Shown here one piece after another: positions 3,690 through 22,378 of a stretch of 45,777 nt of DNA. The DNA is taken from the IMG/VR virus record IMGVR_UViG_3300020183_000138, positions 1-45,777 of that record; one strand, written 5' to 3'. Source of the stretch: a virus. Each line of letters opens with the position of its first letter. The stretch's first letter is position 1. Below the pieces are notes generated by a model. It was not told the origin of the DNA and did not search any database. It saw only the letters and a program-made list of their open reading frames with translations. Both the position numbers and the translations under genes were made by a program.

Positions 3690-4265
3690 TCAAAAAGGCC
3701 AAAAGCCACGATCGTCTAGACCGTGTGCTGCATCAATGGCGGCTCTCCAATGACGCACCTGCTCATCATTTTTGATAGCTTCGAGAATACTCATTGATGC
3801 AATCATCTTCATACCTTCCTCGTAGGCTTTTTGGTTTTCATCGCCTTTTACTACTTTAGGCTCACCAAAAGCTTTATCTTTGATGTAATTAGCCCAAGTG
3901 TCTTCCGTGCGAGCTTTGTAAGCCTCTAAAGCTTCTCTATCCCGTTCTTTGCCCTTAGCTTCTAGATAGCCGCTTCTTCCATACTCTCGAAGTAGACCTT
4001 GTGCATTTCCGGCTAAGACATCGGCCAATCCCTTTACACCGGCACCGGCACCGGCGCCAAGGCCGCCACCGATAAGAGCCCCCTTAAGCTTAGACTTACC
4101 ACGCAGTGCATTTACCAGAGCGCCGATACCCGCACCAGCAAGACCTCCGCCGCCTGCATAGACGCCGTAGTTAGCGAGCTGACTCTCAAACGGGCTAAAA
4201 CTGCCTACAGTAAGTAGAGCTCGCTTTTCTACCATGGATTTAACATTATTTGCTACTTTAATCAT
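3690..4265 (-). CDS. Glycine-zipper virion-type protein, MIKVANN tag
   Basis: 191 aa. It opens with MIKVANNVKSMVEKR, a tag shared with the genes at 20812 and 21562. Residues about 33-85 form glycine-zipper helices (YAGGGGLAGAGIGALVNALRG, then KLKGALIGGGLGAG) that are almost identical to those of the gene at 13298, so the two are paralogues. The C-terminal half is charged and helical. Start: ATG with GGAG about 9 nt upstream. Glycine zippers usually insert into or assemble in membranes, so an injected or internal virion protein is plausible. It is last in the operon. Confidence 0.7.
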   Translation of the reverse strand: MIKVANNVKSMVEKRALLTVGSFSPFESQLANYGVYAGGGGLAGAGIGALVNALRGKSKLKGALIGGGLGAGAGAGVKGLADVLAGNAQGLLREYGRSGYLEAKGKERDREALEAYKARTEDTWANYIKDKAFGEPKVVKGDENQKAYEEGMKMIASMSILEAIKNDEQVRHWRAAIDAAHGLDDRGFWPF

Positions 4266-4283
4266 CGCATACTCCTTCTTTAT

Positions 4284-4289
4284 ATTATA
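4284..4289 (-). promoter_or_regulatory. Possible -10 element (TATAAT)
   Basis: TATAAT on the minus strand, 19 nt before the start codon of the gene at 3690-4265, with an AAGGAG between. No clear -35 box is seen, so this is weak. Confidence 0.25.
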
Positions 4290-4296
4290 GTAAATG

Positions 4297-4983
4297 TTAA
4301 CTCTTAATAGCGTCTATTGCCGAGTTTATCGTATGCTTTTGCGCAAGCCCAGCTCCAGCACCAAGTAAGCCACCAGTACCGGCACCTAGCCCCAACCCAA
4401 TTAGCAAAGCTCTTTTATAATCCTTTTCCTTCTTGTCCCGGAAGTACTCTACCAAAGGGCCTACCCCAGCTCCTACCAACCCCCCAGTTAGTAATCCACC
4501 TGCCCCATAGGCATATGGCAAACTACCGCTGTAGTTACGAACTAGTCCTTCTAGAAACTCTAAAACCCCCGCTGTCTTTACTGCAGGGGTCTTTTCGGGC
4601 TTCTTGCCAACCTGATTGATCAGCTTATCCATGAGAAGATATCCACCGATGCCGCCACCCAATCCACCTAAACCCATTCCGGCCATACCATAACCTGCAA
4701 CGTCGTTAACGCGCTTTTTAATGTCTTCATCTTCGGTTACAGGACCGTATATAGCGTTTGCACCATACGCTCCTAAGCCACCGCCTGCAAAACCGCCAAG
4801 TAGCATGCCAAGGTCTGCACCTAAGCCCTTGGCTGCGCCGCGAAGTATTTCTCGCATAAGCGGTTCTTTATCGTCTGCTGCAGCTCCATGGATTAGAGCA
4901 CTCAGACCTGTGCCTATAAATGCTTGCTTGGATCTAGCAGATGCCTGCTTATACTGAGGAGAATGGTGTGCGTATGGGGTCAT
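4297..4983 (-). CDS. Glycine-zipper virion-type protein, PY-H-YKQA tag
   Basis: 228 aa. N-terminus MTPYAHHSPQYKQASARSKQA is the second tag type of this cluster. Two blocks of glycine-rich helices follow (about 55-110 and 145-220, for example LGMLLGGFAGGGLGAYG and AYGAGGLLTGGLVGAGVG), separated by a charged linker with KTAG. No enzymatic motif is seen. It resembles hydrophobic ejection or internal-core proteins in composition only. It sits in a tightly packed set of similar genes. Confidence 0.65.
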   Translation of the reverse strand: MTPYAHHSPQYKQASARSKQAFIGTGLSALIHGAAADDKEPLMREILRGAAKGLGADLGMLLGGFAGGGLGAYGANAIYGPVTEDEDIKKRVNDVAGYGMAGMGLGGLGGGIGGYLLMDKLINQVGKKPEKTPAVKTAGVLEFLEGLVRNYSGSLPYAYGAGGLLTGGLVGAGVGPLVEYFRDKKEKDYKRALLIGLGLGAGTGGLLGAGAGLAQKHTINSAIDAIKS

Positions 4984-5000
4984 GGATATCCTTGATATCC

Positions 5001-6107
5001 TTAAGATTTTGTAGGGGTAGTGGGTCTTGGGGCCTGACTCAAAGTACTAGAAGGAGGTTGGGATGGCGAAGGATAGGCAGTCGCTTTATTTAAAGTATTG
5101 AGTCCGTAGTGAGTAGTGATTGGTCCAAAGTCCTTGCCGTAATAATCTCGCATGCTTTGATAGAAACGAGAGTTGTCTAAAGTGTTGCGTGCACTTTCTA
5201 AGGTAGACATTTGCGCATTTGGTTGAGCTGTCTGGCGTTGAGCTTCCTGTAGAGCAGCCCTTGTAGCTCCAGGCATACTCTCTAATTGATTTAGGGCGCC
5301 ATAACCTACGGCTTTTACGCCAGCTCCTATAGGTCCAGATGCAGCTACACTTAATCCTTCTCTAGCGGCTGTAAATGCATCATGTGGGAGGGGATTTCCC
5401 ATCATGTCTACAAAAGTTCTATCAATGGGATTATCTCCACCTTGTCGGTAGATATAATGATAAGGGTTGCTCAAATATTCCTTGCCGGCATGCATAAGTC
5501 CGCCCCAACCCATTTTATGAGATAGGTTTGCAGCTTCAGCCGCGGAGTAGCCGGCATCAAGTAAACTTTGATATGCGTCTGCTTGATACTTATTTACGTT
5601 TTGCGCAGCAGGCACAGCAACATTTACAGCATCTCCAATTACTTTAGGAGCTGTAAGCCCTACTATAGGGCCTCCATAGGTTTTTAGAGCTTTACCTATA
5701 TTGGAGGCAGCACCCACAGCTTGTCTTGCTCTTGGTGCTGCTGTTAATATAGTTTTAGCTGTAGGTATAGCATAGGGGGCTGCAAGGACGCCGGCGGCTG
5801 CTCCTGCTGCAAGTCCGCTAACACCTAATGAAGCTGCAGCGGCATCCAACATTGGATCTTTATATTGAAGTTCGTATTGAGTTCTGCCTGGCAATGCGTT
5901 TAGCAATCGACGATTAGTGTCGATCCACATTGAATCTTCTGGGTAATCAGAACCGATTCTGCCGCCAGTCCAATAATGGGCAGCTCCGCTAAACGGCTCA
6001 GCAACTCCAGAAGCAAAAGACTTAATGCCAGCCCAAAGTGGACTATCCTGCGCAGTTTTGCTACGAAGGCTATAAAGCTTAGAAAGATTGGTTGCAAGCT
6101 TTATCAT
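5001..6107 (-). CDS. Putative virion protein, Ala/Gly-rich
   Basis: 368 aa. N-terminus MIKLATNLSKLYSLRSKTAQ is a divergent MIKVANN-type tag. Residues about 75-175 are Ala/Gly-rich helices preceded by YELQYKDPMLDAA. The protein at 16788 has FELQYNDPLLDYS at the equivalent place, so they are distant paralogues. The C-terminal 60 residues are Ser/Pro/Thr-rich. No ribosome-binding site is visible. The ATG overlaps a TAA (TAATG) that ends a duplicated fragment of the neighbouring gene's 3' end (6113-6136), suggesting rearrangement or coupling. Confidence 0.6.
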   Translation of the reverse strand: MIKLATNLSKLYSLRSKTAQDSPLWAGIKSFASGVAEPFSGAAHYWTGGRIGSDYPEDSMWIDTNRRLLNALPGRTQYELQYKDPMLDAAAASLGVSGLAAGAAAGVLAAPYAIPTAKTILTAAPRARQAVGAASNIGKALKTYGGPIVGLTAPKVIGDAVNVAVPAAQNVNKYQADAYQSLLDAGYSAAEAANLSHKMGWGGLMHAGKEYLSNPYHYIYRQGGDNPIDRTFVDMMGNPLPHDAFTAAREGLSVAASGPIGAGVKAVGYGALNQLESMPGATRAALQEAQRQTAQPNAQMSTLESARNTLDNSRFYQSMRDYYGKDFGPITTHYGLNTLNKATAYPSPSQPPSSTLSQAPRPTTPTKS

Positions 6108-6151: not shown

Positions 6152-6682
6152 TTATGCAACCGGCTGCTTGTACATATCTGGGTTAAGATACGGAAAGTTC
6201 AAACTCTGGCCTGCGCCTATTCCGGCGCCTATTAATCCGCCCAAGCCTAAACCTAATAGCGAGTTTCTATAGCCATTAGAGAGGCCCGACCCAACATCCA
6301 TACCGAGCCCGGCGACGCCACCAATGGGGGCACCTGTGAGGCCACCCTTAATAGCTCCAAGCAAAGCCCTACGAAGCATATTGGGCCCATCTTGTCTGGT
6401 AATCACATCCTCATTCTCGTAGCCTGAAAGAGCGTTATCTAACGCCCCTGTGCCTGCACCGAGTAGACCCCCTGCGCCGCCGCCTAACAGAGCGCCTATC
6501 AGGGTACTTGAGGCATCTGCGCCAGGGGCAGTCCCACCAAGGACGCCGCCGCCTAGGGCGCCAAGTGTAAGTCCAGAGAGGCCTCCTAAAAGGGCCCCTC
6601 TCTGTAGACGAGTTTTATAGTCTACGGAACGCTCGGCTTTTGCTTGCTTGTAATAAGGGGAATGATGAGAATATGGTTGCAT
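6152..6682 (-). CDS. Glycine-zipper virion-type protein, PYSHHSPYYKQA tag
   Basis: 176 aa. Tag MQPYSHHSPYYKQAKAERS, then two zipper blocks (about 28-85 and 110-165) flanking the motif YENEDVITRQDGPNMLRRAL. The gene at 13843 has YANEDIITRRSEPNRLRRAL in the same position and is a clear paralogue. The basic LRRAL junction between two hydrophobic glycine blocks recurs in the genes at 20344 and 21983. Probably a membrane-active virion component (inference). Confidence 0.68.
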   Translation of the reverse strand: MQPYSHHSPYYKQAKAERSVDYKTRLQRGALLGGLSGLTLGALGGGVLGGTAPGADASSTLIGALLGGGAGGLLGAGTGALDNALSGYENEDVITRQDGPNMLRRALLGAIKGGLTGAPIGGVAGLGMDVGSGLSNGYRNSLLGLGLGGLIGAGIGAGQSLNFPYLNPDMYKQPVA

Positions 6683-7352: not shown

Positions 7353-10300
7353 TTACTTACCAAGAATCTTTACCGTATCAGTAGGGCTGAGTTCGCCGCG
7401 GTTGAACGCCTTAATGACATCGTCTTTAGTTTGGAATACCTTAACGTTGCTCTTATCTGGTGGGCGCTTGCTAGCTAAATAAAGGCCGTATAAAAACTCG
7501 TTCTTAATAAATGGCTGAGCCTGGAATGTTGCAGCAGACATGAGATTACGACTAGGCAACATGCGTTCGTAGGCTTCAGCTACAGCCTTCTGGGAGGAGG
7601 GAACGTGCAGACGCATCTGATCGCCGTCAAAGTCTGCATTAAATCCAACAACGACAGATGGCGACAATCTAAGGGTGCTACCTGTGGTCAGTCTTGGCTT
7701 GGCTGCCATGAAGTTGTACTTGTGCAGTACGGGCGCTCGGGTAATCATAACCGGACGCTTGTCCATTTCAGCGAGTAGGGCTCGCTTGGCAGTTGTTGTT
7801 CTATTTTCAACCTGCTTCATCGCCTCCAGAGGATTTGCCCCAGAAGCAACGAGAGATCGAACTACGTATGGGCGGAATACAGAGAATGCCATGTCCTCGG
7901 GTACCCCAACATGGTCCATGTCTAGTGAAGGATCTGGGGTAATAACGGCATTACCTACGCCTTCTACGGTAGAAGACAGCACCTTGCGCTGGAACATAGA
8001 GAACTTGGGATTGCTGCCAAGAATGTGTCTAATCAGGCCGTTTACATTCTTCTGCTTGAGCTTTGCACTAGCCGGGTCGGCAAGACCGACCGTAGCCTTG
8101 ATCATCTTATAAAGCGCAAGCTTTTCTTTGCCTGTGGCTTCATTGCCCAGCTCGCCTTGCAGTTCCTTCAAGTTACCGTTCATGCTGAACAGTTCTTTGT
8201 ACAGATAGTTCATGTCTGAGACCATCTGCATATTGCCGGTATCGGTAATGGGTCTGAAGCGAGGGGGCAGTACTGGCATGTCCTCCCAGAGGAAATCGCC
8301 AGGCTTGATCTTGCGCTTCTCCATGCCCTCTAAATACGAAAGTTTGGAAATAGCGTTGCTGCGCTTCTGCCCCTTGGATGCCGTGATTTCTCTACGGGTG
8401 GCCTCAATCTCTGCTGGGATATTCATGCCAACAAGTTTCTGCTCCAATCCTTCCATACCGCGAATGCCTTTGACTGTATCACCAGACACTACGGATTCAA
8501 AGTCTTTCTTGGTGAGTCCGGTAAGGGAGCGCACCACGTCCTCCATGACAGGATTGACCATCTTGGCGGCAAGAGGGAAATGGCCGAAAGATGATTGATT
8601 GACGCCAAAGATCTTCTCGTCAAAGAAACCGCCGTCATAGGCTTTGCCTGTCTTGAAGTCGATGTCTCGGAAGTCCTTGACCTCACCACCAGACAAACTC
8701 TTAACATCTTTGCCGGTCATGCCGTAAATGTTTACGGCGCCGCCTTGACGTTCTACGTTGACCCCAGCACCCTTGAGCTGAGCTACGAACTTATCCCATA
8801 CGAATGGAACATTGACGGAAGGCACTGGAGTACCCATCTTGATCGCACGCCAGTATTCGTCGTTCTTCTGGCCACGGACAAGTCGGGCATCTTTGAGTAC
8901 TTCGATAGCGCCGTGGGCAAGAATAGCATTCATATCAGAGATGGAGATACGCTTAGCGCCTTCATCTCCACCCTTGACTGGAGCTTCTTCAGTGCTGTAA
9001 CCACCGGTATCACGGGCGCTCAGCTTCTTCTCGGCCTGGTGGTGCAGGTTCATGAAGTAGCGATTGCCGGTAAATACATTATCTACGTTGCGATTAAGTC
9101 TTGGGTCGTAGATAGTCTCTGTATCTGTAAGGCCGTTTTTCTTTAGCTCTCGTTGAGCAAAGTCTATGAAGCTTTCGTCCAGGAACGCCGGAAGCTTGAC
9201 TGGCTGCCCAGTCTTAGTGGCAATTTTGCCCATTGCGGCCTCCACGGCCTGAACAGGATTAACACGAGTGACAAGAGCCAGGGGGTTGTAAATGACTTCA
9301 TATGAATTGCCGTCCTTATCCTTGGGCATATCTTCATCTGGAATGATGGTGGAGATGACACCTTTGTCGCCGTAACGACCGACCAGCTTATCGCCTACAG
9401 ACATTGGCTTGTAGGACTTGATCGCCACCTGGTATCCGCTGCGGGTCTTGGTGACGTTGGTGACAATGCCAGGCTGGCTGTGATCCCAGGTTTGGGCTCT
9501 GTTCGTATAGCTCGGTCTCGCCTTCTTCATCAGACCAAAAGTGTCGGACTTTCTTTCGCCTACACCAAGGATAATTGGATCACCTGGATTTAAAGTAGTG
9601 CCGGGTTTCACGACGCCTGTAGCAGAATTCAGATTAACCAACTGCTCTTTGTTGTACTGCCCTGGGAATAAAGATACAAACTTACTGAAGTTGGCCTCGT
9701 AGTCGTCCTTGCCGTCATAGCCAACGGTGTACATGTGCTCAGACGACATCTTCTTGGCAGCTGTCTCAGACATGACTACGCCGTCTTCGAAGTTAGACCC
9801 ACCCAGTTCAGGATCGCCCCAGACGGTATACGCCACCTTTAGATTACGACCCATGGCAAGTCTGCCCTGGTCATCAGAATAGTTAGACTTAGCCAATAGC
9901 TGACCAGGCTTGATCTGATCCCCCAGCTTAACCATTGGCGTATTATGAATATAAGTCTTGCGGTTAAACGGGAAGTTGTTGTACAGCTCGTAACGGCGCT
10001 TTTCCTTGCCGTGCTTTACCTCTACGTATTCTGGCGTAACCGCAGTGACGAGACCATTGCCAAGGTCAGCTTCGGCAGCTACTGCACCAAGGTGCGGTAC
10101 AAGCTGCTCTTCAAACGATCTACCCTCTGCGTCATTAGGATCTAATCCCTGTACCAGGGGCGCTTCGGCACCCTGGACAGGTAGCGCCTGAGTGAAGTAC
10201 TTGGAACCCATGAGCAGGCGTCCACCCTTGATGCCGGAAATGCCAGGCACAAGGTTGGAGTTGATGTTAAACATGTTGCTGTGGGCAGGCACTTCGTACT

Positions 10301-12272
10301 CGACCTCTGCAGGATCGACATAGGAGATGCGGCCACGCACCATCGCCCTGATTGGATCTCCAGTCTTCGCCGAGCGTGCAAGTTCCCCAGGGAACGCAAC
10401 AATCGAATCGGTCAGCGTACGAGCCGCCACAGGCTCCAGCTTGCCGGTCTTGATGCTACGCATCCTGGAGTATATCTGGCCATCTGAGCCCTTGTAGGAG
10501 CCTACGGTGAGTCGTAGGTCGATACCTACCTTGTCGGACTCAGGAGTACGAACTGGGTCTAGGAACCCAAGGTGAGATGGCTGGACTGAACGGCTGTCAA
10601 CAGGAATGCCGTGAGCGGCTGAACCAATACCGCCCTCACCAGTGCGGATTACACGCATATTCTGATCCAGGATCTCCATCGGATTTACTTCTTCGATGGG
10701 AGCGCCGAGACCAGAACCGATGAGTACACCATTGAGCACCGGTGTAAATACACCGTTGCGGAATGCATTTAAGTTGCCTTTATTGGTAGCCTTGAATAGA
10801 GCTGTTCTGACAGCTGCGCCGGCGTCCTTTTGAATTCTTTCGGAGAAGAAGTCCTCTGGGCCTAGGAACTTCTGATAGGCCAAGGAGTCACGATCATCCT
10901 GATCTTCAAGACCGCGTTGAGCATTAAGAATCTTTTGAGAGGCGCGCAGTAAAGTGCTGCCAGTTATTCTGCTTAAGTCTTCGTCGTTGAGCTGCATTTG
11001 CTCATACTCGAAGTCCTGCATGGTGGGCAAAGGGGCAGCTTCCTTCTCAGTCAGTAATTCATTTAAATTAGCAGCAACCTTTGTACCTACAGCTAGTCTA
11101 AAGCCACCACGAGGCTTGGCATCGAGTAGCAGGCTTCTACGAAGTTGCTCCAGCTCCGGGCACTCAATATCAATGCAGTATTCCCCGCCGTTGGGTGGCA
11201 GTACGCTGCGAATATTGTAGGTAAATCTACGGCCAGAACCGCAGGTGGTCTCAAAGTTCTTACGGAAGACTTTCTTTAGCTGCTTAAGCTCTTCTGCCGT
11301 AATAACGACAAGCTTGCCCTTGTCGGCAACGGGAGAGATAGCAGGAGCTTTGTCAGAATCCCTTAGCGCATAGAAAACGCTATCTACGAATCCTGCAGGT
11401 ACGGTAATGTAGCCTTCGCCTTCGATCTTTAGTGTACCCCGCAGCGGTACATCTGCTTGCTTCTTGATGACTCCGGCATAACTCAAAGTACGACGGGTAA
11501 CCTCTGGGTCTAGCTCAGTCTTATAAAGAGCATCTTTGATGCCTTGATAAATCGTGGCATCGTCTAGACCCTTGGAAGGATTATTGGTTAGTCGTTCATA
11601 GATACGAGCTGCGTCGTAAGCTGAACCAATCTTATTGGACCCCAGAAGCTCCTTGCCCCAGGTGCGCTCAAGAATAGAGTCGTCAATACCCATGGCCTTG
11701 AACATCGGATATGCAGGAGCAACGGACTGCCCAATCTCGGCAACAAACTTTCCAGTATCTGGCATAAAGGCCATGCGGAAACCACGACCCTTGCCCGGCA
11801 TGGTGTTGAAGTGCGCCTCAAACTCGCCAGACTTACGCTTACGAACGTATGGCCCTGCAAGCAGACGAGACTGATTGGCTACGGTGTATTCGCTGCCTGC
11901 GTTAATAAACGTGCCACGATCCGTAAGATATGGCACTCTGGCAAGAGTGACAGATCTATCGGTCTGATCCATGATCTCGCCGGTAGCGTTATCCTTCATT
12001 ACCAGGCGGCCACGCAAGGGAACATAAAGACTCTGATTCTGCATCAGAGCCTCTTGCTGTTCCTTCAGGCTGTAGGGTTCAGAGCGACCGTAATCTAAGT
12101 CCGAAAGCTCGACAGTGTATCGAGTGTTCTGCAGGGGAAACTTTGACAATACCGCATTCTTTACCCCGTCAAAGATATTCTTACGGGTGACACGGTAATC
12201 GTTAAAGCCCCTCAGCACCGGGGCAGGAGGGGCTACGAGTTGGTTTAAGTCGTCTGCACCGGGCGTAGGCAT
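7353..12272 (-). CDS. RNA polymerase beta fused to N-terminal half of beta'
   Basis: 1639 aa, DNA-directed RNA polymerase of the multisubunit type. Residues 1 to about 1185 are beta-like: GTFINAGSEYTVANQSRLLA (120-139), HLGFLDPVRTPESDKVG (about 563-580, like the HYGRxCPxETPEGxNIG region), VAYTVWGDPELGGSNFEDG, and GDKLVGRYGDKGVIS (about 960-974). Beta'-like sequence begins at about 1190 with FRDIDFKTGKAYDGGFFDEKIFG, then PVLPPRFRPI (about 1333), RAPVLHKYNFMA and the Mg-binding NADFDGD (1545-1551). The zinc-ribbon cysteines normally following the first beta' motif are absent. The protein ends 88 residues after NADFDGD, before the regions holding the bridge helix and trigger loop. Host enzymes have these as separate proteins, and phiKZ-type phages split them into four or more. 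The gene sits among putative virion genes, which suggests a packaged polymerase (inference). Confidence 0.93.
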   Translation of the reverse strand: MPTPGADDLNQLVAPPAPVLRGFNDYRVTRKNIFDGVKNAVLSKFPLQNTRYTVELSDLDYGRSEPYSLKEQQEALMQNQSLYVPLRGRLVMKDNATGEIMDQTDRSVTLARVPYLTDRGTFINAGSEYTVANQSRLLAGPYVRKRKSGEFEAHFNTMPGKGRGFRMAFMPDTGKFVAEIGQSVAPAYPMFKAMGIDDSILERTWGKELLGSNKIGSAYDAARIYERLTNNPSKGLDDATIYQGIKDALYKTELDPEVTRRTLSYAGVIKKQADVPLRGTLKIEGEGYITVPAGFVDSVFYALRDSDKAPAISPVADKGKLVVITAEELKQLKKVFRKNFETTCGSGRRFTYNIRSVLPPNGGEYCIDIECPELEQLRRSLLLDAKPRGGFRLAVGTKVAANLNELLTEKEAAPLPTMQDFEYEQMQLNDEDLSRITGSTLLRASQKILNAQRGLEDQDDRDSLAYQKFLGPEDFFSERIQKDAGAAVRTALFKATNKGNLNAFRNGVFTPVLNGVLIGSGLGAPIEEVNPMEILDQNMRVIRTGEGGIGSAAHGIPVDSRSVQPSHLGFLDPVRTPESDKVGIDLRLTVGSYKGSDGQIYSRMRSIKTGKLEPVAARTLTDSIVAFPGELARSAKTGDPIRAMVRGRISYVDPAEVEYEVPAHSNMFNINSNLVPGISGIKGGRLLMGSKYFTQALPVQGAEAPLVQGLDPNDAEGRSFEEQLVPHLGAVAAEADLGNGLVTAVTPEYVEVKHGKEKRRYELYNNFPFNRKTYIHNTPMVKLGDQIKPGQLLAKSNYSDDQGRLAMGRNLKVAYTVWGDPELGGSNFEDGVVMSETAAKKMSSEHMYTVGYDGKDDYEANFSKFVSLFPGQYNKEQLVNLNSATGVVKPGTTLNPGDPIILGVGERKSDTFGLMKKARPSYTNRAQTWDHSQPGIVTNVTKTRSGYQVAIKSYKPMSVGDKLVGRYGDKGVISTIIPDEDMPKDKDGNSYEVIYNPLALVTRVNPVQAVEAAMGKIATKTGQPVKLPAFLDESFIDFAQRELKKNGLTDTETIYDPRLNRNVDNVFTGNRYFMNLHHQAEKKLSARDTGGYSTEEAPVKGGDEGAKRISISDMNAILAHGAIEVLKDARLVRGQKNDEYWRAIKMGTPVPSVNVPFVWDKFVAQLKGAGVNVERQGGAVNIYGMTGKDVKSLSGGEVKDFRDIDFKTGKAYDGGFFDEKIFGVNQSSFGHFPLAAKMVNPVMEDVVRSLTGLTKKDFESVVSGDTVKGIRGMEGLEQKLVGMNIPAEIEATRREITASKGQKRSNAISKLSYLEGMEKRKIKPGDFLWEDMPVLPPRFRPITDTGNMQMVSDMNYLYKELFSMNGNLKELQGELGNEATGKEKLALYKMIKATVGLADPASAKLKQKNVNGLIRHILGSNPKFSMFQRKVLSSTVEGVGNAVITPDPSLDMDHVGVPEDMAFSVFRPYVVRSLVASGANPLEAMKQVENRTTTAKRALLAEMDKRPVMITRAPVLHKYNFMAAKPRLTTGSTLRLSPSVVVGFNADFDGDQMRLHVPSSQKAVAEAYERMLPSRNLMSAATFQAQPFIKNEFLYGLYLASKRPPDKSNVKVFQTKDDVIKAFNRGELSPTDTVKILGK

Positions 12273-12289: not shown

Positions 12290-13294
12290 TTAAAGCTTGA
12301 ATTTAGGCTTACCTTCGTCAGTCTCTTCAAGATCAATACCCGATGCAAGAGCACCGGAAGCAATATCGCGCTTGAGCATGCTTTGCAGAGTCTTGAGCTT
12401 GGCCTTCTCAGGATCGTCCTTCATTTTATTCTGCATCATCATCCAGCCAAGCAAAGCACCTACGCCAGGAGCCAGACCTAGAGCGTAAGCAGCCCCTGGA
12501 ACACTGAATCCCAGGCCGTGCGGATCAGGGCTTCTCACAATCTTATCCTCAGGAATTGGATCAATAGCCTGTTTTACCAAACCATCGATCTGCACTTGAA
12601 GATCAGAGGATTGCTTTGAGAGAGCCTTTTCAAATTCTTTTTTGGCTTTCTCAACCTTAGACTCCATCTTCTGCTTACGACTCTGATCGATGAGTCTAGT
12701 GCCTAGCATAAAGGTAAGAATACCGGGAGCCAGCATTGCAGCTGGAGTAGCCATGCCGTACATCATTGGCTCTGTGAGGTATTCTCCTAATGTGTTAGAT
12801 ACCTTCTCGCCAGGCTCCTTGGGATTCTCCATGTCGTCTATGACTTCCTGAGAAAGATCTGAAGTAGTTTCGTCTGCTTTCTCTGGCAGCATATCTGCAG
12901 GGCTGGCTGTATCGCTAGGCAAATACTCCTGTAGTTTGTGGCTCTTTGGAATAGCAATACGCTTCTCCATACGCTTTGCACGACTCTCTTGGCCAGGAAA
13001 GCCAAACACGGATTCGTCGTGCAGGTACTTACCAAGACCATAGAGTCCCACGCCACCAAGGCCTACCCCTGCACTGATGGCAGCATAGTTAAGTAGTTGT
13101 TTTACGTTGGGATCCATGGATTCCTTTTTGCTTTCCGGTAGATCTTCATGCTTCGTCTTGGCAAAGTCACGCACATCTTTTTCAGACATGCTTGCCGCGG
13201 CTTCTTCGGCCTTACCAGAGCCAGTAGCCTTGCCCTCTTGGATGGCCTTGACTAAACCAAAAAAGCGTTGTTGCTGCTTGCTCTGAGCAGGCAT
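12290..13294 (-). CDS. DUF3008-like N-terminus with membrane segments
   Basis: 334 aa. The first ~60 residues (MPAQSKQQQRFFGLVKAIQ ... SMSEKDVRDFAKTKHEDLPE) closely resemble the small DUF3008 family, in which short proteins begin MPAxSxxQQRF and carry a 'SMSxKDxxDFAxTKH' motif. Here that unit is fused to hydrophobic segments at about 67-87, 175-200 and 270-290, with a coiled-coil stretch of lysine/glutamate at about 207-230. Start: ATG with GGAGG 7 nt upstream. It lies directly upstream of the RNA polymerase gene (17-nt gap). Its role is unknown; virion association is inferred from position. Confidence 0.65.
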   Translation of the reverse strand: MPAQSKQQQRFFGLVKAIQEGKATGSGKAEEAAASMSEKDVRDFAKTKHEDLPESKKESMDPNVKQLLNYAAISAGVGLGGVGLYGLGKYLHDESVFGFPGQESRAKRMEKRIAIPKSHKLQEYLPSDTASPADMLPEKADETTSDLSQEVIDDMENPKEPGEKVSNTLGEYLTEPMMYGMATPAAMLAPGILTFMLGTRLIDQSRKQKMESKVEKAKKEFEKALSKQSSDLQVQIDGLVKQAIDPIPEDKIVRSPDPHGLGFSVPGAAYALGLAPGVGALLGWMMMQNKMKDDPEKAKLKTLQSMLKRDIASGALASGIDLEETDEGKPKFKL

Positions 13295-13297: not shown

Positions 13298-13837
13298 TTA
13301 ACCTCCAAAGCCAAGCATACCCTTGGCAGCATCCGTCTTCTTAGAGAGTGTGTCCTTGAGAGCGGCTAGAAGATCCTGTTGCTCGGATTCATTAATTCTA
13401 TTTACAAGTCGGCGCTCAAATTGAGCAGGCGTAGTACCTGTACCTAAACCTTCCAATGCGTCGGCAGTTTCAAGGACCCGAGCTAGAGCGCCGCCACCCA
13501 TACGCATGGGGTAGTTTGTTCGCAGAGCAGCTAAGTCCTCTTTATCCTTTTTAATCTGAGCGGCTTGATCGCTGAGAGCATAATTGCCAAGAGCCTTTGC
13601 ACCTGCGCCTAGGCCAGCACCAACGCCACCACCGATGAGAGCACCCTTAAGTTTAGACTCACCACGCAGTGCGTTTACCAGAGCGCCGATACCGGCACCA
13701 GCAAGTCCGCCACCACCTGCATAAAGAGCGTAGTCCTTTAAGAGACTGTCAGTGGGACTAAGGGCTGCAAGGGCATCCTGAACAGTGACATTAGATTTTT
13801 TAAGAGTTGGACGAAGATGAGAGTAGGTCATTAACAT
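13298..13837 (-). CDS. Glycine-zipper virion-type protein, paralogue of 3690 gene
   Basis: About 179 aa from the ATG at 13835-13837 (MLMTYSHLRPTLKK). An upstream GTG-like extension would overlap the preceding gene and is not used. The segment YALYAGGGGLAGAGIGALV ... LKGALIGGGVGAGLG matches the gene at 3690 nearly residue for residue. The C-terminal half is helical and charged and ends KGMLGFGG. The tag differs from that of its paralogue, so the N-terminal segment has been exchanged. Confidence 0.65.
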   Translation of the reverse strand: MLMTYSHLRPTLKKSNVTVQDALAALSPTDSLLKDYALYAGGGGLAGAGIGALVNALRGESKLKGALIGGGVGAGLGAGAKALGNYALSDQAAQIKKDKEDLAALRTNYPMRMGGGALARVLETADALEGLGTGTTPAQFERRLVNRINESEQQDLLAALKDTLSKKTDAAKGMLGFGG

Positions 13838-13842: not shown

Positions 13843-14481
13843 TTATTCTTTCATATAATTTTGCGAATAAACATCTTTGTTTGACCAAGGTTCGATTACA
13901 CCACCGGTAAGAGCGCCCAATCCGGCGCCTGCTAGAGCGCCTAAGCCAGGATATAAAATCTGTGCCTCGGTATCGGCATGGCGCGGCGTCACGACGTAGC
14001 CCTGTAGACCGCCAAGAGCACCTCCCGCTAGAGCCCCCGCCAGAGCTCTTCGAAGTCTGTTAGGTTCGGATCTTCTAGTTATGATGTCTTCGTTCGCATA
14101 ACCTAAAAACGCATTGGATCCGGCGCCAAGGCCGGCGCCAAGGCCGCCACCGATGAGTGCGCCGAGTAAGCCTTGGAAACCCCGACCTTTAGTGTGAAAT
14201 GCGTCGACCCCGCCATGGGCGCCAGCGGCTCCGGCTATAGCACCTAAGAGGGCTCCGGCACCACCCCCATACAGAGCACCTCTGCGGGCACGACCTGCGT
14301 AATCCACTTTTCTATCCTCTGCAGGAACGTCTTCTGCTTGTTCCTGCTTTCTTTTTTTACGCCTCACCTTATCGGCTGCAGCTTCGGCTTCATCATCATC
14401 AGCAAGCTTTTGCCTAAAGTCGTTTGATAACTTGACCCAGAGGTAGTCACGCAATAGAGAGTATTCTGCTGCCTTATTCAT
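13843..14481 (-). CDS. Glycine-zipper virion-type protein, LLRDYL tag
   Basis: 212 aa. N-terminus MNKAAEYSLLRDYLWVKLS is the third tag type (compare YALLRHYLMQKIA at 19919). A very charged linker (about 25-60, DDEAEAAADKVRRKKRKQ) leads into two zipper blocks separated by YANEDIITRRSEPNRLRRAL, the same arrangement as the gene at 6152. The start overlaps the end of the upstream gene by 8 nt. Confidence 0.66.
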   Translation of the reverse strand: MNKAAEYSLLRDYLWVKLSNDFRQKLADDDEAEAAADKVRRKKRKQEQAEDVPAEDRKVDYAGRARRGALYGGGAGALLGAIAGAAGAHGGVDAFHTKGRGFQGLLGALIGGGLGAGLGAGSNAFLGYANEDIITRRSEPNRLRRALAGALAGGALGGLQGYVVTPRHADTEAQILYPGLGALAGAGLGALTGGVIEPWSNKDVYSQNYMKE

Positions 14482-14881: not shown

Positions 14882-15177
14882 GGGTTAGATGGTAGCGACT
14901 CTAGCTGCTCTTGCACCTTTTTGCCAATCTCTTCTTTTTTCTTTAAAGCTTCAGCCAACATAGCTGCTCTAATCTCTTGATACTTGTTTGAACCCGCATA
15001 ACCCAATCCTCCGCCAGCTAGAGCTCCTAGAGCAGCAGAGCCTAATCCCAAACCAGTTGTTTGATTTTTCTTAGGAGTCAGCAGTTTATATAAGCCATAA
15101 CCCCCAGCGCCTCCGAGTCCGGCGCCAAGGAGAGCATATAAGGCATCTTGCGTATTAAGTTCAGAACGCTTGTACAT
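14878..15177 (-). CDS. Small glycine-zipper protein, 99 aa
   Basis: MYKRSELNTQDALYALLGAG leads straight into a glycine-rich hairpin of two hydrophobic helices (about 15-33 and 43-65, LGLGSAALGALAGGGLGYAG) and a charged C-terminal helix (ALKKKEEIGKKVQEQLE). No catalytic motif. The start codon overlaps the previous gene's stop (TAATG). Confidence 0.62.
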   Translation of the reverse strand: MYKRSELNTQDALYALLGAGLGGAGGYGLYKLLTPKKNQTTGLGLGSAALGALAGGGLGYAGSNKYQEIRAAMLAEALKKKEEIGKKVQEQLESLPSNP

Positions 15178-15548
15178 TAGGAAAGCCCAGACTCTACAAG
15201 CTTCTTAGCATTACGATACTTTGCAAGAAGATGTAGTTTCTTTGCCTCATCTACTGCACCATAGCTTGGCAGAATGGAGTCATCTGGATCTAGCTCAAAC
15301 TTAGCCTTGTTGTACAAGTAGTTACCTAGAGCGCCTGCGCCAAAACCACCTACAAGACCAAGAGATCCAAGGAGTAATCCCATCTGAAGCGTTTTGTTTG
15401 CAGCCTCGGCTGTATCCTTTGCTGTACCCGTTATCGGGTTTGCTTGTTTATACCCGCTGTAAGATAAAAGCTCAGAAGGCAGGATGCCTAGCTCTGCAGC
15501 CTTTTCGCAAAAGCCTTGACGAAATGCTTGTAATTCTTCGTTGGTCAT
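15177..15548 (-). CDS. Small membrane-associated virion-type protein
   Basis: 123 aa. The N-terminus (FRQGFCEKAAELGILPSEL) is amphipathic, then SGYKQANPITG recalls the YKQA tag in an internal position. One glycine-rich hydrophobic segment at about 52-75 (MGLLLGSLGLVGGFGAGALG) could span a membrane. The C-terminal third is charged. Function unknown. Confidence 0.6.
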   Translation of the reverse strand: MTNEELQAFRQGFCEKAAELGILPSELLSYSGYKQANPITGTAKDTAEAANKTLQMGLLLGSLGLVGGFGAGALGNYLYNKAKFELDPDDSILPSYGAVDEAKKLHLLAKYRNAKKLVESGLS

Positions 15549-16791: not shown

Positions 16792-18590
16792 TGCGTCGCT
16801 CCTTGGGCTTGCTGCATTCCCTGCTGATATACCTGATCCATTACCGGCTGCAGTTGCAGCAAGGCATCTACTAAGGGAGTATTACCTGACTCCTGAACTT
16901 CCACTGGCAGCTGTTGAGCCTTGGCAAGATTATCAGCTTGTTGCGCAAGCTCTGCATAGCCTGGAGGCACCTGTCCAGTTTGCTGATAGGTGTAATACAT
17001 GTCAGACAGCGTTCTGTTAAGATCAGCCATCATTTTTGCAGCTGCAATAACGGTTTGAGGGCGTCCCCCTACTTGATTTGCTAGAGGAGATTGCATTAGA
17101 TACCTGCCAAGCTTACTGGAGTTAATAGACTCTGAGTTTTGAGCTGACTCATAAGCTAAAGCATCTAAATCCTCAAAGAACCTAGGAGCTAGCAAAAATG
17201 TATTTGGCAATCCTATTGAGCTTGTAGCAACATTAGCTGCAGTATCTTTATTTGCAGCCAGATCTTCAGCATAACTAGCCGCACCTAATGCTCTAAATGG
17301 ATTAAAAGTTACTGCGTTAGCTGCAGGGCTAACAAAAGAATTTTCACCTTTAGCAGCAATTTGTTTTCTCACTTCGGCATACTGTGCTGGATCACTTAAC
17401 ACCAAGGCTTGCTCCTCTGGTGACATTTGAGATATTTTTAACTCAGTAGCTCTGTCTATAGCTAATTGTTGTTGCTCATCAATAGAAGGTAAAAAAGTGC
17501 TTGCACCAATACCGGATCGATTTAAAGCAGTGGGATCAAAGGAGACGCCTCCGGCCAATAAAGATTCACCAAAACGCTTAAGAGATTCTGGAGTGCCAGC
17601 AACATTTGGATTTGCTGCATTAAACGCAGCTGTATCCCTGTAAGCATTAGCGTAGTTATTAGCTGCGCCTTGAGTTGCAAAGTGTGCACCTAATTGAGAA
17701 AAAAGTCTACCTGCCCCAGGAGATGTTTGCGCTGCACTCAGGAGTACCGGTACTGGATTAAGTCCCGATATGGCGTAGTTAGCAGAAGTAGGAATCGCCT
17801 CTCCTGCAAATCTGACTACAGGATTAGTTGCACCTTGAAATACGGGTTGAAATCCTCTTGCGGCGGTTTGACCTAGAGCCCTGAATGCACTGGGTGCTGC
17901 AGCACGAGCGGCCTGAGCCTCCGCCTGTGCTGCAACACTGCCGCCTCCGGTACCTGCTGCCATCAATAAACTCGGAGCAGCCTCCAAAGCATAACTAGAA
18001 TAATCTAATAGAGGATCGTTATACTGAAGCTCAAAGTTGCCACCATAGCGATTGGCTACGCGCTTTCCAGCGTCTGCCAACATGCTTCCGTACACAGCAT
18101 CGGATTGAGCCTTATCAGCTGTAGCTTGCTGTAAACCTTTAGTGCCAACATCGTAGGCATACATAAAGGGAGCAGTAGGCATAATCGGAGATCTAGCCAA
18201 GTCTCCAACAAATGCACTTGCAGCACTGGGGCTTGGCGCAACAGCTTGTGGATTACTTGGACTGATCCCCCTAGCTTGAGCCTCGTAGAGTCTAAACCTA
18301 TTCCTTAGGTCTATTTGTTCCTGATCCATTTGAGCACGCTGACCGCCTCGATAACCCCAACCTTTGGTGCTATAGGTGTAGTCTCCATATGGAAACTGAC
18401 GAGCGTAGTCTGCCTCTAATTGCTTGCCTTGTGCTGCAAGCTCAGGGTTAACGCCTGGGCGATCGTAGTATCTAGGTGCTTGAAAAGGTTTTGGAGTGCC
18501 TGTAGAAGTAAGGCCCGTCTCAGTAGCAGACGTATAGCTAGGCCTTGTAGGCTCTGCTGCTTGCTTGATGTAAGCGCTATAGGGAATCAT
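16788..18590 (-). CDS. Putative large virion protein, 600 aa
   Basis: Begins MIPYSAYIKQAAEPTRPSY, a variant of the PY...KQA tag. The first 120 residues are Gln/Tyr/Pro-rich. FELQYNDPLLDYS near 200 is followed by an Ala/Gly-rich hydrophobic stretch, a layout shared with the protein at 5001. The central part is Ala/Asn/Gln-rich and the C-terminus Gln-rich helix. No catalytic motif is visible. It could be an ejected inner protein, but this is inference from composition and neighbours. Confidence 0.58.
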   Translation of the reverse strand: MIPYSAYIKQAAEPTRPSYTSATETGLTSTGTPKPFQAPRYYDRPGVNPELAAQGKQLEADYARQFPYGDYTYSTKGWGYRGGQRAQMDQEQIDLRNRFRLYEAQARGISPSNPQAVAPSPSAASAFVGDLARSPIMPTAPFMYAYDVGTKGLQQATADKAQSDAVYGSMLADAGKRVANRYGGNFELQYNDPLLDYSSYALEAAPSLLMAAGTGGGSVAAQAEAQAARAAAPSAFRALGQTAARGFQPVFQGATNPVVRFAGEAIPTSANYAISGLNPVPVLLSAAQTSPGAGRLFSQLGAHFATQGAANNYANAYRDTAAFNAANPNVAGTPESLKRFGESLLAGGVSFDPTALNRSGIGASTFLPSIDEQQQLAIDRATELKISQMSPEEQALVLSDPAQYAEVRKQIAAKGENSFVSPAANAVTFNPFRALGAASYAEDLAANKDTAANVATSSIGLPNTFLLAPRFFEDLDALAYESAQNSESINSSKLGRYLMQSPLANQVGGRPQTVIAAAKMMADLNRTLSDMYYTYQQTGQVPPGYAELAQQADNLAKAQQLPVEVQESGNTPLVDALLQLQPVMDQVYQQGMQQAQGATQ

Positions 18591-19036
18591 ACAAGTGCAG
18601 TATCTCTAGGAATATCCTTAGGATTGAGAAGATCTGATGTAGTGGTGTGATCCGGAGCCTTATTGTCATTTAACTGCTCAGTTGAATCTTGCTTTACCGT
18701 ATCAACTTCAGTGTCTTTATTCTGAGGTAGAGAGTATCCTACATTTACCTCTACGTCTGCTAGATCCTTAGGATCAAACATAGGCACTGCCTTAGGAGCA
18801 TACTTTAGACCATAGCTAATTAAACTTTTTATTAATTTACGATCCGCAGACGTCTTCACTACTGTGATCTCGACAACCTTATCTGCAACCGGAGCTGCAT
18901 GCTCTAGTTCAGGCTTATCTAGATCAGACAGAATAGACTCTAGCTTTTCTTGTAGCAGATCGGAGGGATTTAAAGACCCCATGGCTTCACAACCGCCATA
19001 TGCGTATTTGACTAAATAAGATTGAAATAAATTCAT
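18587..19036 (-). CDS. Hypothetical acidic protein, 149 aa
   Basis: Starts at ATG 19034-19036 (MNLFQSYLVKYAYGG), a short hydrophobic tag-like N-terminus comparable to the LLRxYL tags. The remainder is soluble and acidic, with a possible strand-rich core (DKVVEITVVKTSADRKLI) and a Thr/Asp-rich C-terminal tail. It is the first gene after a terminator, so a promoter probably lies at 19040-19075; TATAAT occurs at 19061-19066. Confidence 0.6.
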   Translation of the reverse strand: MNLFQSYLVKYAYGGCEAMGSLNPSDLLQEKLESILSDLDKPELEHAAPVADKVVEITVVKTSADRKLIKSLISYGLKYAPKAVPMFDPKDLADVEVNVGYSLPQNKDTEVDTVKQDSTEQLNDNKAPDHTTTSDLLNPKDIPRDTALV

Positions 19037-19918: not shown

Positions 19919-20281
19919 TTAGCAGCTGCAGTCCCACTTACGCAGCGCCTTGTTAATGCGAGAGTCCGGATCTCGTGAGGTCTCAGAGCTAGTGCGCTTA
20001 GCCTTCATACCGCACATGCGTGAGCAGAAGCTGCTACGGCGCTTGGCCTTAGCAGGGCTCTTATCAGCCGCCGCAGAGCTCACTGGAGCCTTTAGATTGC
20101 CTCCAGTAGCCTTGTTGTAGCTAGCTCGGCCCTTGGCATTGAGACCGCCCTCTGGGTTCTTACCCTCAGAGCGAGTCCATGCCTCAGAGGCAGCCTTGCA
20201 CTCTTCGCAAGCAGCGCACTCCTCTGCAATCTTTTGCATGAGGTAGTGGCGTAATAAAGCGTATTGAGCTTGTTTGGTCAT
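19919..20281 (-). CDS. DUF6321-like Cys-rich protein with LLRHYL tag
   Basis: 120 aa. N-terminal tag MTKQAQYALLRHYLMQKIA, then a CAACEEC cluster. Residues about 40-95 (GGLNAKGRASYNKATGGNLK ... KAKRRSSFCSRMCGM) match a short conserved phage/marine domain that I associate with DUF6321 (GLxAKGRxxYNxATGxNLKxP ... KSFCxRMxGM). The protein ends CSC. Cys clusters could bind zinc or form disulfides. The function of the domain is unknown to me. Confidence 0.7.
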   Translation of the reverse strand: MTKQAQYALLRHYLMQKIAEECAACEECKAASEAWTRSEGKNPEGGLNAKGRASYNKATGGNLKAPVSSAAADKSPAKAKRRSSFCSRMCGMKAKRTSSETSRDPDSRINKALRKWDCSC

Positions 20282-20290: not shown

Positions 20291-20329
20291 TTATTCAAAC
20301 TTTACACTGTTGTTTGCTACTTTAATCAT
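20291..20329 (-). other. Orphan MIKVANN tag mini-ORF (12 aa)
   Basis: ATG 20327-20329 opens MIKVANNSVKFE and then stops at 20291. The first seven residues equal the tag of three nearby genes, and KFE* equals the end of the gene at 6705. It sits 10 nt before the start of the gene at 19919. It is either a recombination remnant or a very short translated leader. Confidence 0.5.
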
Positions 20330-20343: not shown

Positions 20344-20769
20344 TTAATTTTGCTCTAATAGTTTTGGATCAACATAGAACTCAGGTTGACTCACAAAGGG
20401 AGGCAGATTCTTTACCTTAACTGCGTTAAGAGCATCAACAATAGTCTGCAGCATTTTGACATTAGCTTTTGCCCCAGACTCCTCTAGAGCCGTCTGTATG
20501 CCTTTGCCCACATTGCTAGCACCTACACCTGCGCCAAGACCAGCACCGGTAAGCCCGCCTATACTCATGCCCTGTAGAGCTCTACGTAAGTATTGAGCCT
20601 CTTCAGGCTTGGCAAAGAAGGCCTCTCTCAACAGGCCGCCACCAGCACCTAATCCAGCGCCAAGTAAACCGCCAGCTCCGGCACCAACCAAAGCCCTGAG
20701 GCCTTGGAGTCCATCAGAGTTAGCGCCTTCAAACAAGGCTGCTTGCTTGTAATGCTGGTAAGGTCGCAT
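20344..20769 (-). CDS. Glycine-zipper virion-type protein, PYQHYKQAALF tag
   Basis: 141 aa from ATG 20767-20769. Tag MRPYQHYKQAALFEGA, then two glycine-rich helices separated by KPEEAQYLRRALQGMSIGG; the gene at 21983 has DPNEAQYLRKALQGAGLGA at the same point. A charged C-terminal half follows. Clearly part of the same paralogue family as the genes at 6152 and 13843. Confidence 0.65.
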   Translation of the reverse strand: MRPYQHYKQAALFEGANSDGLQGLRALVGAGAGGLLGAGLGAGGGLLREAFFAKPEEAQYLRRALQGMSIGGLTGAGLGAGVGASNVGKGIQTALEESGAKANVKMLQTIVDALNAVKVKNLPPFVSQPEFYVDPKLLEQN

Positions 20770-20811
20770 AATAAAGATGAGTATAAGGCTTAATTCAGAA
20801 AATAGCAATCA

Positions 20812-21486
20812 TCAATAATCGTCCAGATCACCACCACCCGATCCACTAGGAATACCCTTAGGTTTAGTAGCTACAGGTTTAACAGGCGCAGGTGCTGGCT
20901 TAGCGGGCATAGGAGCTGGAGGTTTTACCGGTGCTGGCTTAGCGGGCATACGAACTGGAGGTTTTACCGGTGCTGGCATAACAGGCATAGGAGCTGGAGG
21001 TTTTACCGGTGCTGGCATAACAGGCATAGGAGCTGGAGGTTTTGCTGGTGCTGCCGGAACAGGCATACGAACTGGAGGTTTTGCTGGTGCTGCCGGAGGC
21101 GCCCCTGTAACCCCCTGGCCGCCTTGATAACCTGGTTGTCCGGTCGTACGGAGCGGGGCAGTGCTAGTCAAAAACTTATCTAAGGCAACTTGTTCTGCGG
21201 GATCTATTGCTGTTTTACCATCTGGATGAACGGCGATTCCAGGTTTATTGCCGAAGGCACCTACAAAATTAACGAAGCCTTTAAGGCCTAGTCTCTGCAT
21301 GATTTTCTCTTGTGCCTCAAGGCGCTCGTCCTCTTCCCCCTCTTGCTGCGAATCATAATTATCATCATCGTAGCTTGCCTCAAATGCAATCTTCTGCATG
21401 AGGTATTGGCGTAATGAGCGGCATTGATTATATTCCCAAGCCTGCTTCTCAAGCATACGTTGAAGATTATTGGCTACTTTAATCAT
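20812..21486 (-). CDS. Tagged protein with Pro/Ala/Met repeat domain
   Basis: 224 aa. Two tags occur in series: MIKVANNLQRMLEKQ and then SLRQYLMQKIAFEA. An acidic linker (YDDDNYDSQQEGEEDER) precedes a small folded-looking part (LGLKGFVNFVGAFGNKPG), and residues about 130-210 are imperfect repeats of KPPAPMPVMPAPV / KPPVRMPAKPAPV. The DNA of that region is repetitive too. Pro/Ala-rich rods often form extended linkers. No enzymatic motif. Its first 15 codons and leader are duplicated in the next gene upstream. Confidence 0.6.
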   Translation of the reverse strand: MIKVANNLQRMLEKQAWEYNQCRSLRQYLMQKIAFEASYDDDNYDSQQEGEEDERLEAQEKIMQRLGLKGFVNFVGAFGNKPGIAVHPDGKTAIDPAEQVALDKFLTSTAPLRTTGQPGYQGGQGVTGAPPAAPAKPPVRMPVPAAPAKPPAPMPVMPAPVKPPAPMPVMPAPVKPPVRMPAKPAPVKPPAPMPAKPAPAPVKPVATKPKGIPSGSGGGDLDDY

Positions 21487-21534
21487 TGTTCATACAAATA
21501 AAGCTGCTTGTTTGTGATGCTGATAAGGTTGTAT
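21443..21534 (-). repeat. 92-bp repeat, copy 1 (leader plus tag codons)
   Basis: Nearly identical to 21872-21963 (about five mismatches). It covers the first 15 codons of the gene at 20812 and the leader before it. In this copy the mini-ORF's start codon has become ATA. Confidence 0.85.
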
Positions 21535-21561
21535 AACCAGTATTAAAGATGAGTGTAGGGC

Positions 21562-21915
21562 TTAGTTCAAAAACCGGGGAGCGGCGTGCTCTGCCCGATT
21601 CGCTCTGGAACGTTCAATATCTTGTCTGGCGGCCTGACGCTCTGCTCTCAACCTCTCTACGCTATTGGCGAAGTCTTGCTCAGGATCGTACGGAACTGAG
21701 GCAACCCCTGCTCTTTGAGGTTTCCCTGCAACTGAACCAAGACCTGACACAAACGGATAGTAAGAATCTAACGTTGGGTCTTCGCTCTGATTAACCCCTG
21801 ATTGAGGCAGGTATTGCTGCAACGCTTGCATCCCTCTTGGTAGAAAGCGGCTTGGGAAGTTAGCTATACTTTGCTTCTCAAGCATACGTTGAAGGTTGTT
21901 TGCTACTTTAATCAT
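21562..21915 (-). CDS. Tagged hypothetical protein, 117 aa
   Basis: MIKVANNLQRMLEKQ is identical to the tag of the gene at 20812. The rest is unrelated: a polar Pro/Gln/Ser-rich segment and an Arg-rich helix (VERLRAERQAARQDIERSRAN). No glycine zipper and no catalytic motif. That an identical N-terminus heads an unrelated body shows that the tag behaves as an exchangeable module. Confidence 0.55.
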   Translation of the reverse strand: MIKVANNLQRMLEKQSIANFPSRFLPRGMQALQQYLPQSGVNQSEDPTLDSYYPFVSGLGSVAGKPQRAGVASVPYDPEQDFANSVERLRAERQAARQDIERSRANRAEHAAPRFLN

Positions 21916-21963
21916 TGTTCATACAAATAAAGCTGCTTGTTTGTGATGCTGATAAGGTTGCAT
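21872..21963 (-). repeat. 92-bp repeat, copy 2
   Basis: Second copy of the 92-bp unit, covering the tag codons of the gene at 21562 and its leader. It retains an intact mini-ORF (21919-21963). Confidence 0.85.
21919..21963 (-). other. Orphan PY-H-KQA tag mini-ORF (14 aa)
   Basis: Reads MQPYQHHKQAALFV and stops 3 nt before the ATG of the gene at 21562. It equals the N-terminus of the full-length protein at 20344 (MRPYQHYKQAALF). No good ribosome-binding site is seen (CCCCC precedes it). Remnant or translated leader. Confidence 0.5.
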
Positions 21964-21982
21964 GGGGGAATTATATCAACCT

Positions 21983-22378
21983 CTAGCGCTGTGGGGTCGT
22001 TGAAGGAGAATGGATTAACTCGCTGTCTTGCGCGAGATTATCATAAAAATTGCCAGTGGACTTGCGGTCTTGCAAGAGACCACCTATGGGACGTATAGGG
22101 ATACCAAAGTCAGAACTGCGCTGACCATTAGTATTTAAAGCGAAGATACCCCCTGCTCCACCTCCAACAAGTGCCCCTAGCCCCGCACCTTGTAAAGCTT
22201 TACGCAGGTATTGAGCCTCATTAGGATCTTTTAAAGACTCTAGTAGCAAGGCAGAGATAAGCCCTGCACCCGCACCTAACCCAGAGCCTGCAGTTGTGTA
22301 TTTAAGAGCACGGAGGACTTCATCGTCATCAAATGCTTGCTTTGTTGAAGTTGAGCAGTAATGAGAATATGGCTTCAT
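21983..22378 (-). CDS. Glycine-zipper virion-type protein, PYSHY tag
   Basis: 131 aa. Tag MKPYSHYCSTSTKQAFDDDE, hydrophobic glycine-rich helix (GSGLGAGAGLISALLLES), basic junction DPNEAQYLRKALQ, second zipper (GLGALVGGGAGGIFAL), then a polar tail. It is the first gene of the virion-protein run in the direction of transcription. A TATAAT lies so close upstream that the transcript might be leaderless. Confidence 0.62.
   Translation of the reverse strand: MKPYSHYCSTSTKQAFDDDEVLRALKYTTAGSGLGAGAGLISALLLESLKDPNEAQYLRKALQGAGLGALVGGGAGGIFALNTNGQRSSDFGIPIRPIGGLLQDRKSTGNFYDNLAQDSELIHSPSTTPQR

Follow-up and report, generated by a model that had tools for sequence, protein, structure and literature searches.

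Interchangeable N-terminal tags ending in K-x-A, probable capsid targeting propeptides of a phage clade

The virus record IMGVR_UViG_3300020183_000138 of IMG/VR, 45,777 bases long and referred to here as the window, encodes on its minus strand, where all the relevant genes lie, a set of proteins that begin with one of three short recurring N-termini (tags A, B and C). We consider it quite probable that these tags are interchangeable capsid targeting propeptides like those of phage T4, removed by a prohead protease specific for K-x-A. Each tag would be an N-terminal propeptide of ~10-35 residues acting as a capsid targeting sequence (CTS), in which a variable front (MIKVANN, PYxH or LLRxYL) would dock the protein in the prohead core and the terminal residues, K-x-A or at times K-x-S, would form the cut site of a serine prohead protease with the gp21/assemblin fold. 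The protease would also cut itself, the scaffold or core proteins at many sites and probably the N-arm of the major capsid protein, in every case at K-x-A. After cleavage the bodies, most of them Gly-zipper and some Pro-rich or Cys/Arg-rich, would stay in the mature head and probably be ejected with the DNA, and new cargo would be recruited by DNA-level copying of the 5' cassette of a tag onto another gene. As a guess from composition, the Gly-zipper bodies may insert into or cross the membrane during DNA entry, and the others may act in the newly infected cell.

The consensus of the tags is MIK[VIL]ANN..LxKQA for A, MxPYxH..YKQA for B and LLRxYLMQKIA for C, and all of them share a K-x-A/S end. 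In a pattern scan, 13 of the 21 genes at 3690-22378, leaving aside the RNA polymerase (RNAP) gene, were headed by one of the tags; the earlier note, which had described the three N-termini on fewer genes, was right in its coordinates, save that gene 13298 likely starts at the ATG at 13831 and not at the TTG at 13888. The exact degenerate form of tag A had four matches in the window, against none for the reversed control pattern; the patterns for tags B and C are looser than that for A, the regular expressions were tuned on the window, and gene calls were heuristic. Under a loose definition, K-x-A/S (or K-A/S) was found within residues 7-22 in 21/21 tag-A forms and 16/16 tag-B forms, and strict K-x-A in 15/21 and 11/16, respectively. 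The tagged bodies are mostly Gly-zipper-like, with a Pro-rich one in gene 20812 and a Cys/Arg-rich one in gene 19919, much as first described; the tagged proteins had hardly any matches in PHROG and Pfam beyond DUF6321 in 19919 and weak Gly-zipper ones.

Tag A heads genes 3690-4265 (MIKVANNVKSMVEKRA at 4218..4265, an exact match with a K-x-A end), 5001-6107 (the variant MIKLATN...RSKTA, MIKLATNLSKLYSLRSKTA at 6051..6107, on a protein with an ~108-residue domain common to B-tagged proteins of the 16788 type), 20812-21486 (MIKVANNLQRMLEKQA at 21439..21486, exact) and 21562-21915 (MIKVANNLQRMLEKQS at 21868..21915, exact). Tag B heads 4297-4983 (MTPYAHHSPQYKQA at 4942..4983, with a second KQA at residues 19-21), 6152-6682 (MQPYSHHSPYYKQA at 6641..6682), 13298-13831 (the variant MTYSHLRPTLKKS at 13793..13831), 16788-18590 (MIPYSAYIKQA at 18558..18590), 20344-20769 (the shortest form, MRPYQHYKQA, at 20740..20769) and 21983-22378 (MKPYSHYCSTSTKQA at 22334..22378). 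Tag C is found on 13843-14481 (MNKAAEYSLLRDYLWVKLSNDFRQKLA at 14401..14481), on 19919-20281 (MTKQAQYALLRHYLMQKIA at 20225..20281, before a Cys/Lys/Arg-rich body) and, as a variant, on 18587-19036 (MNLFQSYLVKYA at 19001..19036, start at 19036), whose orthologue in the relative G001 reads MNLFKAYLVKYA. Gene 20812 carries two tags in series, as the earlier note had seen, the exact tag A being followed by a tag C (SLRQYLMQKIA at 21385..21417) whose DNA is 93.5% identical over 31 bp to 20225-20255. Two mini open reading frames (mini-ORFs) consist of a tag and a stop codon without any body: a tag A, MIKVANNSVKFE, at 20291..20329, with 22 bp identical to the tag at 21895-21916, and a tag B, MQPYQHHKQAALFV, at 21919-21963. 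Another N-terminus with K-x-A, ending in FCEKAAELGILPSELLSYSGYKQA (15441..15548), belongs to gene 15177-15548. Within gene 20812, a tandem repeat of ~39 bp (20891-21097) encodes a Pro-rich repeat.

The position of K-x-A within these proteins was compared with 1000 local shuffles within 20-residue blocks of the 21 non-RNAP genes of the window. In residues 1-30, the motif occurred 21 times against 5.4 expected, a fourfold enrichment reached in none of the 1000 shuffles. From residue 31 onward it occurred 13 times against 30.4 expected, again a value as low in 0/1000 shuffles, while K and A at other spacings occurred 21-32 times each. Depletion was also observed in the tagged bodies of the relatives G001 (6 vs 13.3 expected), G002 (0 vs 5.0) and G003 (3 vs 6.3), and was absent from the tail and replication genes of G001. 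Such a pattern, with the motif in the N-terminal part and its avoidance downstream, is the one expected of a cut site. We also observed that tags A and C have a second K-x-A at residues 3-5 (MIKVA, MNKQA), and that N-termini with two K-x-A/S occur in six window genes against 0.45 expected. K-x-G is likewise depleted (8 in residues 31 onward of the window genes vs ~20 at most other spacings; 7 vs 16 in the tag region of G001), and the protease may accept Gly besides Ala and Ser at the cut.

Relatives were read to follow the tags outside the window. Near relatives of the RNAP, at 78-93% identity, are found in seven IMG/VR contigs, and its closest named relatives, at ~31% identity, are those of Salmonella phage Arash and Vibrio phages D69, D148 and D181. 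The genomes read nearly whole were G001 (the 174.6-kb contig behind locus L013), G002 (129 kb), G003 (69 kb), Arash, D181 and others; related loci are not independent of each other. When bodies were compared with the first 28 residues removed, tag A was found before 15 or more unrelated clusters of bodies in the clade, and the tag differed between copies in six families of bodies. Thus, 4297 has tag B and its orthologue G001_29319, 54% identical, has tag A; 5001 (A) is matched with the 16788 type (B), 13298 (B) with G001_104979 (A), and 13843 (C) with 6152 (B), their bodies being homologous; 20812 (A plus C) corresponds to G003_22445 (C) and G002_97883 (A); and the head-operon protein G001_159544 (A) corresponds to G002_102181 (B). 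Genes 3690 and 13298 proved to be paralogues (110 bp at 87%) bearing tags A and B, respectively, as previously proposed. The presence of tag A on a head-operon protein of relatives indicates that the tag is not confined to the region of the window. That the tags head unrelated bodies, as the earlier note claimed, is correct in that not all bodies are homologous, although several are. In the genomes read, where annotation is sparse, tags A and B were not seen on any recognizable replication or metabolism gene; within that scope, neither tags on clearly non-virion proteins nor homology of all the bodies was found.

The manner in which the tags spread can be read from two segments of the window that are 96.6% identical over 89 bp. 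The copy at 21443..21531 contains a dead tag-B remnant, with ATA in place of ATG, followed by tag A, and the copy at 21872..21960 contains the tag-B mini-ORF MQPYQHHKQAALFV, with its ATG kept, followed by tag A. Since the copied stretch comprises the tag-B remnant and all of tag A, and terminates where the tag does, tags appear to move as 5' cassettes, and the serial tags of 20812 are best read as a tag-A cassette placed before a gene already bearing tag C. The codons of tag A vary while the peptide is kept, which argues that selection acts on the peptide.

Capsid and protease genes were located on relatives, and G003, whose RNAP is 93% identical to that of the window, carries both tagged genes and the protease. 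The proteins G001_154802 and Arash gp222 are homologues with weak matches to PHROG head maturation proteases (E 4.6e-5 and 2.1e-6, respectively), and their genes adjoin scaffold and capsid genes in the head operon (protease 154802 and capsid 151178 in G001; gp222 and gp226 in Arash). Homologues of this protease are found in Arash, D69, D148 and D181, in Bacillus phage G (gp19) and in the mycobacteriophage Bxz1 group. An AlphaFold2 model was built from 44 homologues, with a predicted local distance difference test score above 90 over most of the catalytic domain. Its best solved match was T4 gp21 (5JBL; Z 10.3, 129 residues, root-mean-square deviation 3.4), followed by herpesvirus assemblins (Z 10 to 7) and then by unrelated MCE-domain chains at ~6; matches in a viral structure library were prohead proteases and phage G gp19. 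With Foldseek and the PDB by itself, nothing reached significance; the matches came from a closer alignment of those candidates and from the viral library. By its model, then, the protein is a prohead protease of the gp21/assemblin fold and a relative of T4 gp21. Residues His60 and Ser111 are invariant in the alignment of the 44 sequences and may be the catalytic pair. The propeptide of the protease is otherwise variable and has K-x-A at one aligned site in all 41 sequences with letters there; in 59 of 61 distinct proteases, K-x-A occurs within residues 9-60, against 15.9 expected. Close to the N-terminus of T4 gp21 there is similarly a site that fits the logo of this protease itself (PMC9026906). 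As a separate observation, the N-terminal part of gp93 of mycobacteriophage ErnieJ (L111:14995-19104; 1,369 residues, annotated as hypothetical) is homologous to the head protease family, and from this homology gp93 is probably the prohead protease of its phage group.

We then asked which gapped residue pairs stand out in the head operons, taking the whole syntenic operon from the homologue of Arash gp218 through the capsid gene, with genes not chosen by motif. K-x-A ranked first of ~1,420-1,500 pairs in G001 (66 vs 27.3 expected, z 7.5), Arash (46 vs 20.9, z 5.9) and D181 (51 vs 22.6, z 7.3), and it was not enriched in the rest of these genomes, where it ranked 256, 1514 and 1239 of 1600, respectively. 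Of 80 IMG/VR loci examined around the protease gene, some being near-duplicates of each other, 44 had K-x-A in first place and 68 among the top five. The context in Arash and D181, from a gene set partly chosen by the motif, is [LMFI]-x-K-x-A-[SA]. The T4-type (I/L)xE and the SPN3US-type AxE were considered as the code and rejected, neither being among the top motifs of the G001 head operon. In G001, G008, Arash and D181, the capsid protein has K-x-A or K-x-S at a closely similar position of its N-arm (IKVA, IKVS, VKEA and TKEA).

As a positive control, the statistic applied to the T4 core proteins gp67, gp68, gp21 and gp22 placed IxE first and LxE second, which is the known specificity of gp21. 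On the N-terminal propeptide regions of SPN3US, E-S was first and A-x-E fourth, in agreement with the published A-x-E/S site (PMC10052503), and K-x-A was unremarkable in both controls. A-x-E did not emerge when SPN3US proteins were analyzed at full length, so the absence of a signal means little. Taken with the motif in the protease propeptide and at the tag ends, these sequence patterns argue strongly that the prohead protease would cut after K-x-A.

K-x-A is at the top in head proteins of Arash and D181, as in G001, and weakly so in phage G. Phage G lacks K-x-A in its capsid protein, and in the Bxz1-group phage ErnieJ the motif is only 11th, a borderline rank, so we do not extend the code to all relatives. 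Tags A-C were searched for in Arash and D181 and none was found; the tags are thus specific to the clade and K-x-A is shared. In a blind scan for common N-termini in other K-x-A phages, pair counts were barely above the null, with readable clusters only in G001 (tags A and B) and G013 (one pair). The latter, a distant K-x-A phage (the record behind L192), bears a tag of its own, MIKTAxQIAxxTLxKxA, before two different bodies (154000-154890 and 166103-167149). A protein of 448-490 residues with up to ~15 K-x-A sites is encoded at 101673-103019 of G001 (L019) and 96403-97875 of G002, adjoining a second cluster of tag-A genes; it likely acts as a core or ejection protein encoded away from the main head operon.

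The arrangement resembles that of known capsid targeting propeptides. In T4, the internal proteins IPII and IPIII have the same MKTYQEFIAE before different bodies (also PMC9026906), and ~10 residues of the CTS are enough for head entry (PMC9026906); as in the window, a short identical N-terminus heads different bodies, and a protease of the gp21 fold cuts at the tag end, as would probably be the case in the window. The shortest tag B, MRPYQHYKQA, even has the length of the T4 CTS and aromatic residues at the same positions 4 and 7, possibly by chance; no sequence homology was shown between the window tags and the T4 CTS. The systems differ in the cut motif, (L/I)-x-E in T4 and K-x-A in the window, and in that at least three unrelated tags are found here in one genome, some of them serially arranged, some as mini-ORFs and some exchanged between homologous bodies. 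In phage P1, the N-terminal 30 residues of DarB suffice to direct a reporter into the capsid (PMC9024508); P1 thus also has an N-terminal CTS, the sufficiency being a feature of P1, but the P1 paper reports no consensus among the Dar N-termini, whereas the window tags are plainly shared, and the P1 capsid protein is cut after E120 (PMC9024508). In phages of the SPN3US/phiKZ type, capsid and ejection proteins lose N-terminal propeptides, which contain several sites, to the prohead protease (gp245, A-x-E; PMC10052503); the cut motif is different, and those propeptides, mostly of 111-254 residues, are not a shared set of swappable tags. Capsid targeting propeptides are therefore a known kind; what is new here is the set of several interchangeable tags and a K-x-A protease code unreported in the literature searched. 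We found no report of a K-x-A prohead-protease motif in a search that left subscription journals mostly outside, and no paper on phage Arash.

Several observations weigh against the tags being capsid targeting propeptides. The tagged proteins of the clade are known from genes alone; three different tags would serve one task; and the RNAP carries none of them. A minority of tag-A members lack a clean terminal K-x-A (KLS, THS, HQT), and the tagged bodies of the relative G009 show no K-x-A depletion (8 vs 6.3 expected). Eight genes of the region without tag A, B or C avoid K-x-A in their bodies as strongly (4 vs 12.1), so the avoidance marks the neighborhood and alone cannot tell which proteins are packaged by a tag. 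Finally, neither the protease gene nor the capsid gene is present in the 45.8-kb window, and knowledge of both comes solely from close relatives, such as the contig behind L008/L134 with an RNAP 93% identical.

The earlier note had taken the tags for an address or processing signal serving virion packaging or prohead-protease cleavage. The cleavage half has gained strong support from the K-x-A/S ends, the avoidance in bodies, the head-operon motif, the propeptide of the protease and its gp21 fold; the packaging half draws only on context and on the analogy with the CTSs of T4 and P1, by which the front of the tag would target the protein to the prohead and the tagged bodies would be in the virion. 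It could then be that the K-x-A ends are protease sites and the fronts do not target, the bodies entering by contacts of their own and the tags keeping membrane-active Gly-zipper bodies inert until the head matures. All the cleavage evidence fits this equally, and a masking propeptide makes sense for the Gly-zipper-like bodies that form the majority; yet the fronts (MIKVANN, PYxH) are conserved beyond the cut site with varying codons, are common to the Pro-rich and DUF6321 bodies as well, are swapped whole, and have counterparts in T4 and P1 that suffice for packaging (PMC9026906, PMC9024508), so we regard a role in processing only as rather unlikely. That the tags are docking peptides for a partner other than the capsid, such as the neighboring RNAP or the host membrane, or export signals, would suit the grouping of most tagged genes around the RNAP gene and the many Gly-zipper-like bodies, but it is improbable given that tag A also heads a head-operon protein far from the RNAP gene, that the K-x-A end coincides with the head-protease motif, and that no hydrophobic core like that of a signal peptide is present in the tags. 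Least credible of all is a conserved 5' promoter or translation-start element with the shared peptide as by-product, which the copying of tags as DNA and the remnants and mini-ORFs among the copies would favor, but which is hard to reconcile with the kept peptide of tag A, with the varying length and codons of tags B and C, and with a K-x-A end and a body avoidance that are features of the protein.

The untagged neighbors include the following two. The RNAP (7353..12272, minus strand) is a single-chain, multisubunit-type enzyme of 1,639 residues with beta and beta' domains (Pfam RNA_pol_Rpb2_6, E 4e-43; Rpb1_2, E 8e-26). Its fused beta/beta' relative in L011/G002 spans ~6.1 kb (2,045 residues predicted), a size that suggests an insertion such as an intein. 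Gene 12290..13294 (minus strand) has, in place of a tag, a DUF3008-like N-terminal module; residues 1-58 match DUF3008, below the Pfam gathering score, and also portions of several PHROGs that differ widely in length, by which this N-terminus is, on sequence grounds, another module travelling between phage proteins.

The preferred reading, capsid targeting propeptides cut at K-x-A, reaches beyond the window. It is fairly probable, in our view, that a large and mostly uncultured lineage, including Arash, the marine Vibrio phages and, weakly, phage G, shares the K-x-A code, and that at least one clade has evolved plug-in capsid-entry tags, spread as cassettes, that recruit arbitrary cargo for ejection. 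The head operon of any phage could be examined with the statistic, which recovered the T4 cleavage site blindly, and the short tags (10-16 residues), if they act as proposed, would be usable for loading cargo into phage heads. They would also add a further case to the CTSs of T4 and P1, one with exchange of tags between bodies. Packaged and ejected proteins have long been a blind spot because they evolve fast and are unannotated; if the proposal is true, those of a broad phage lineage could be listed from sequence, by an N-terminal tag ending in K-x-A before a body that avoids it.

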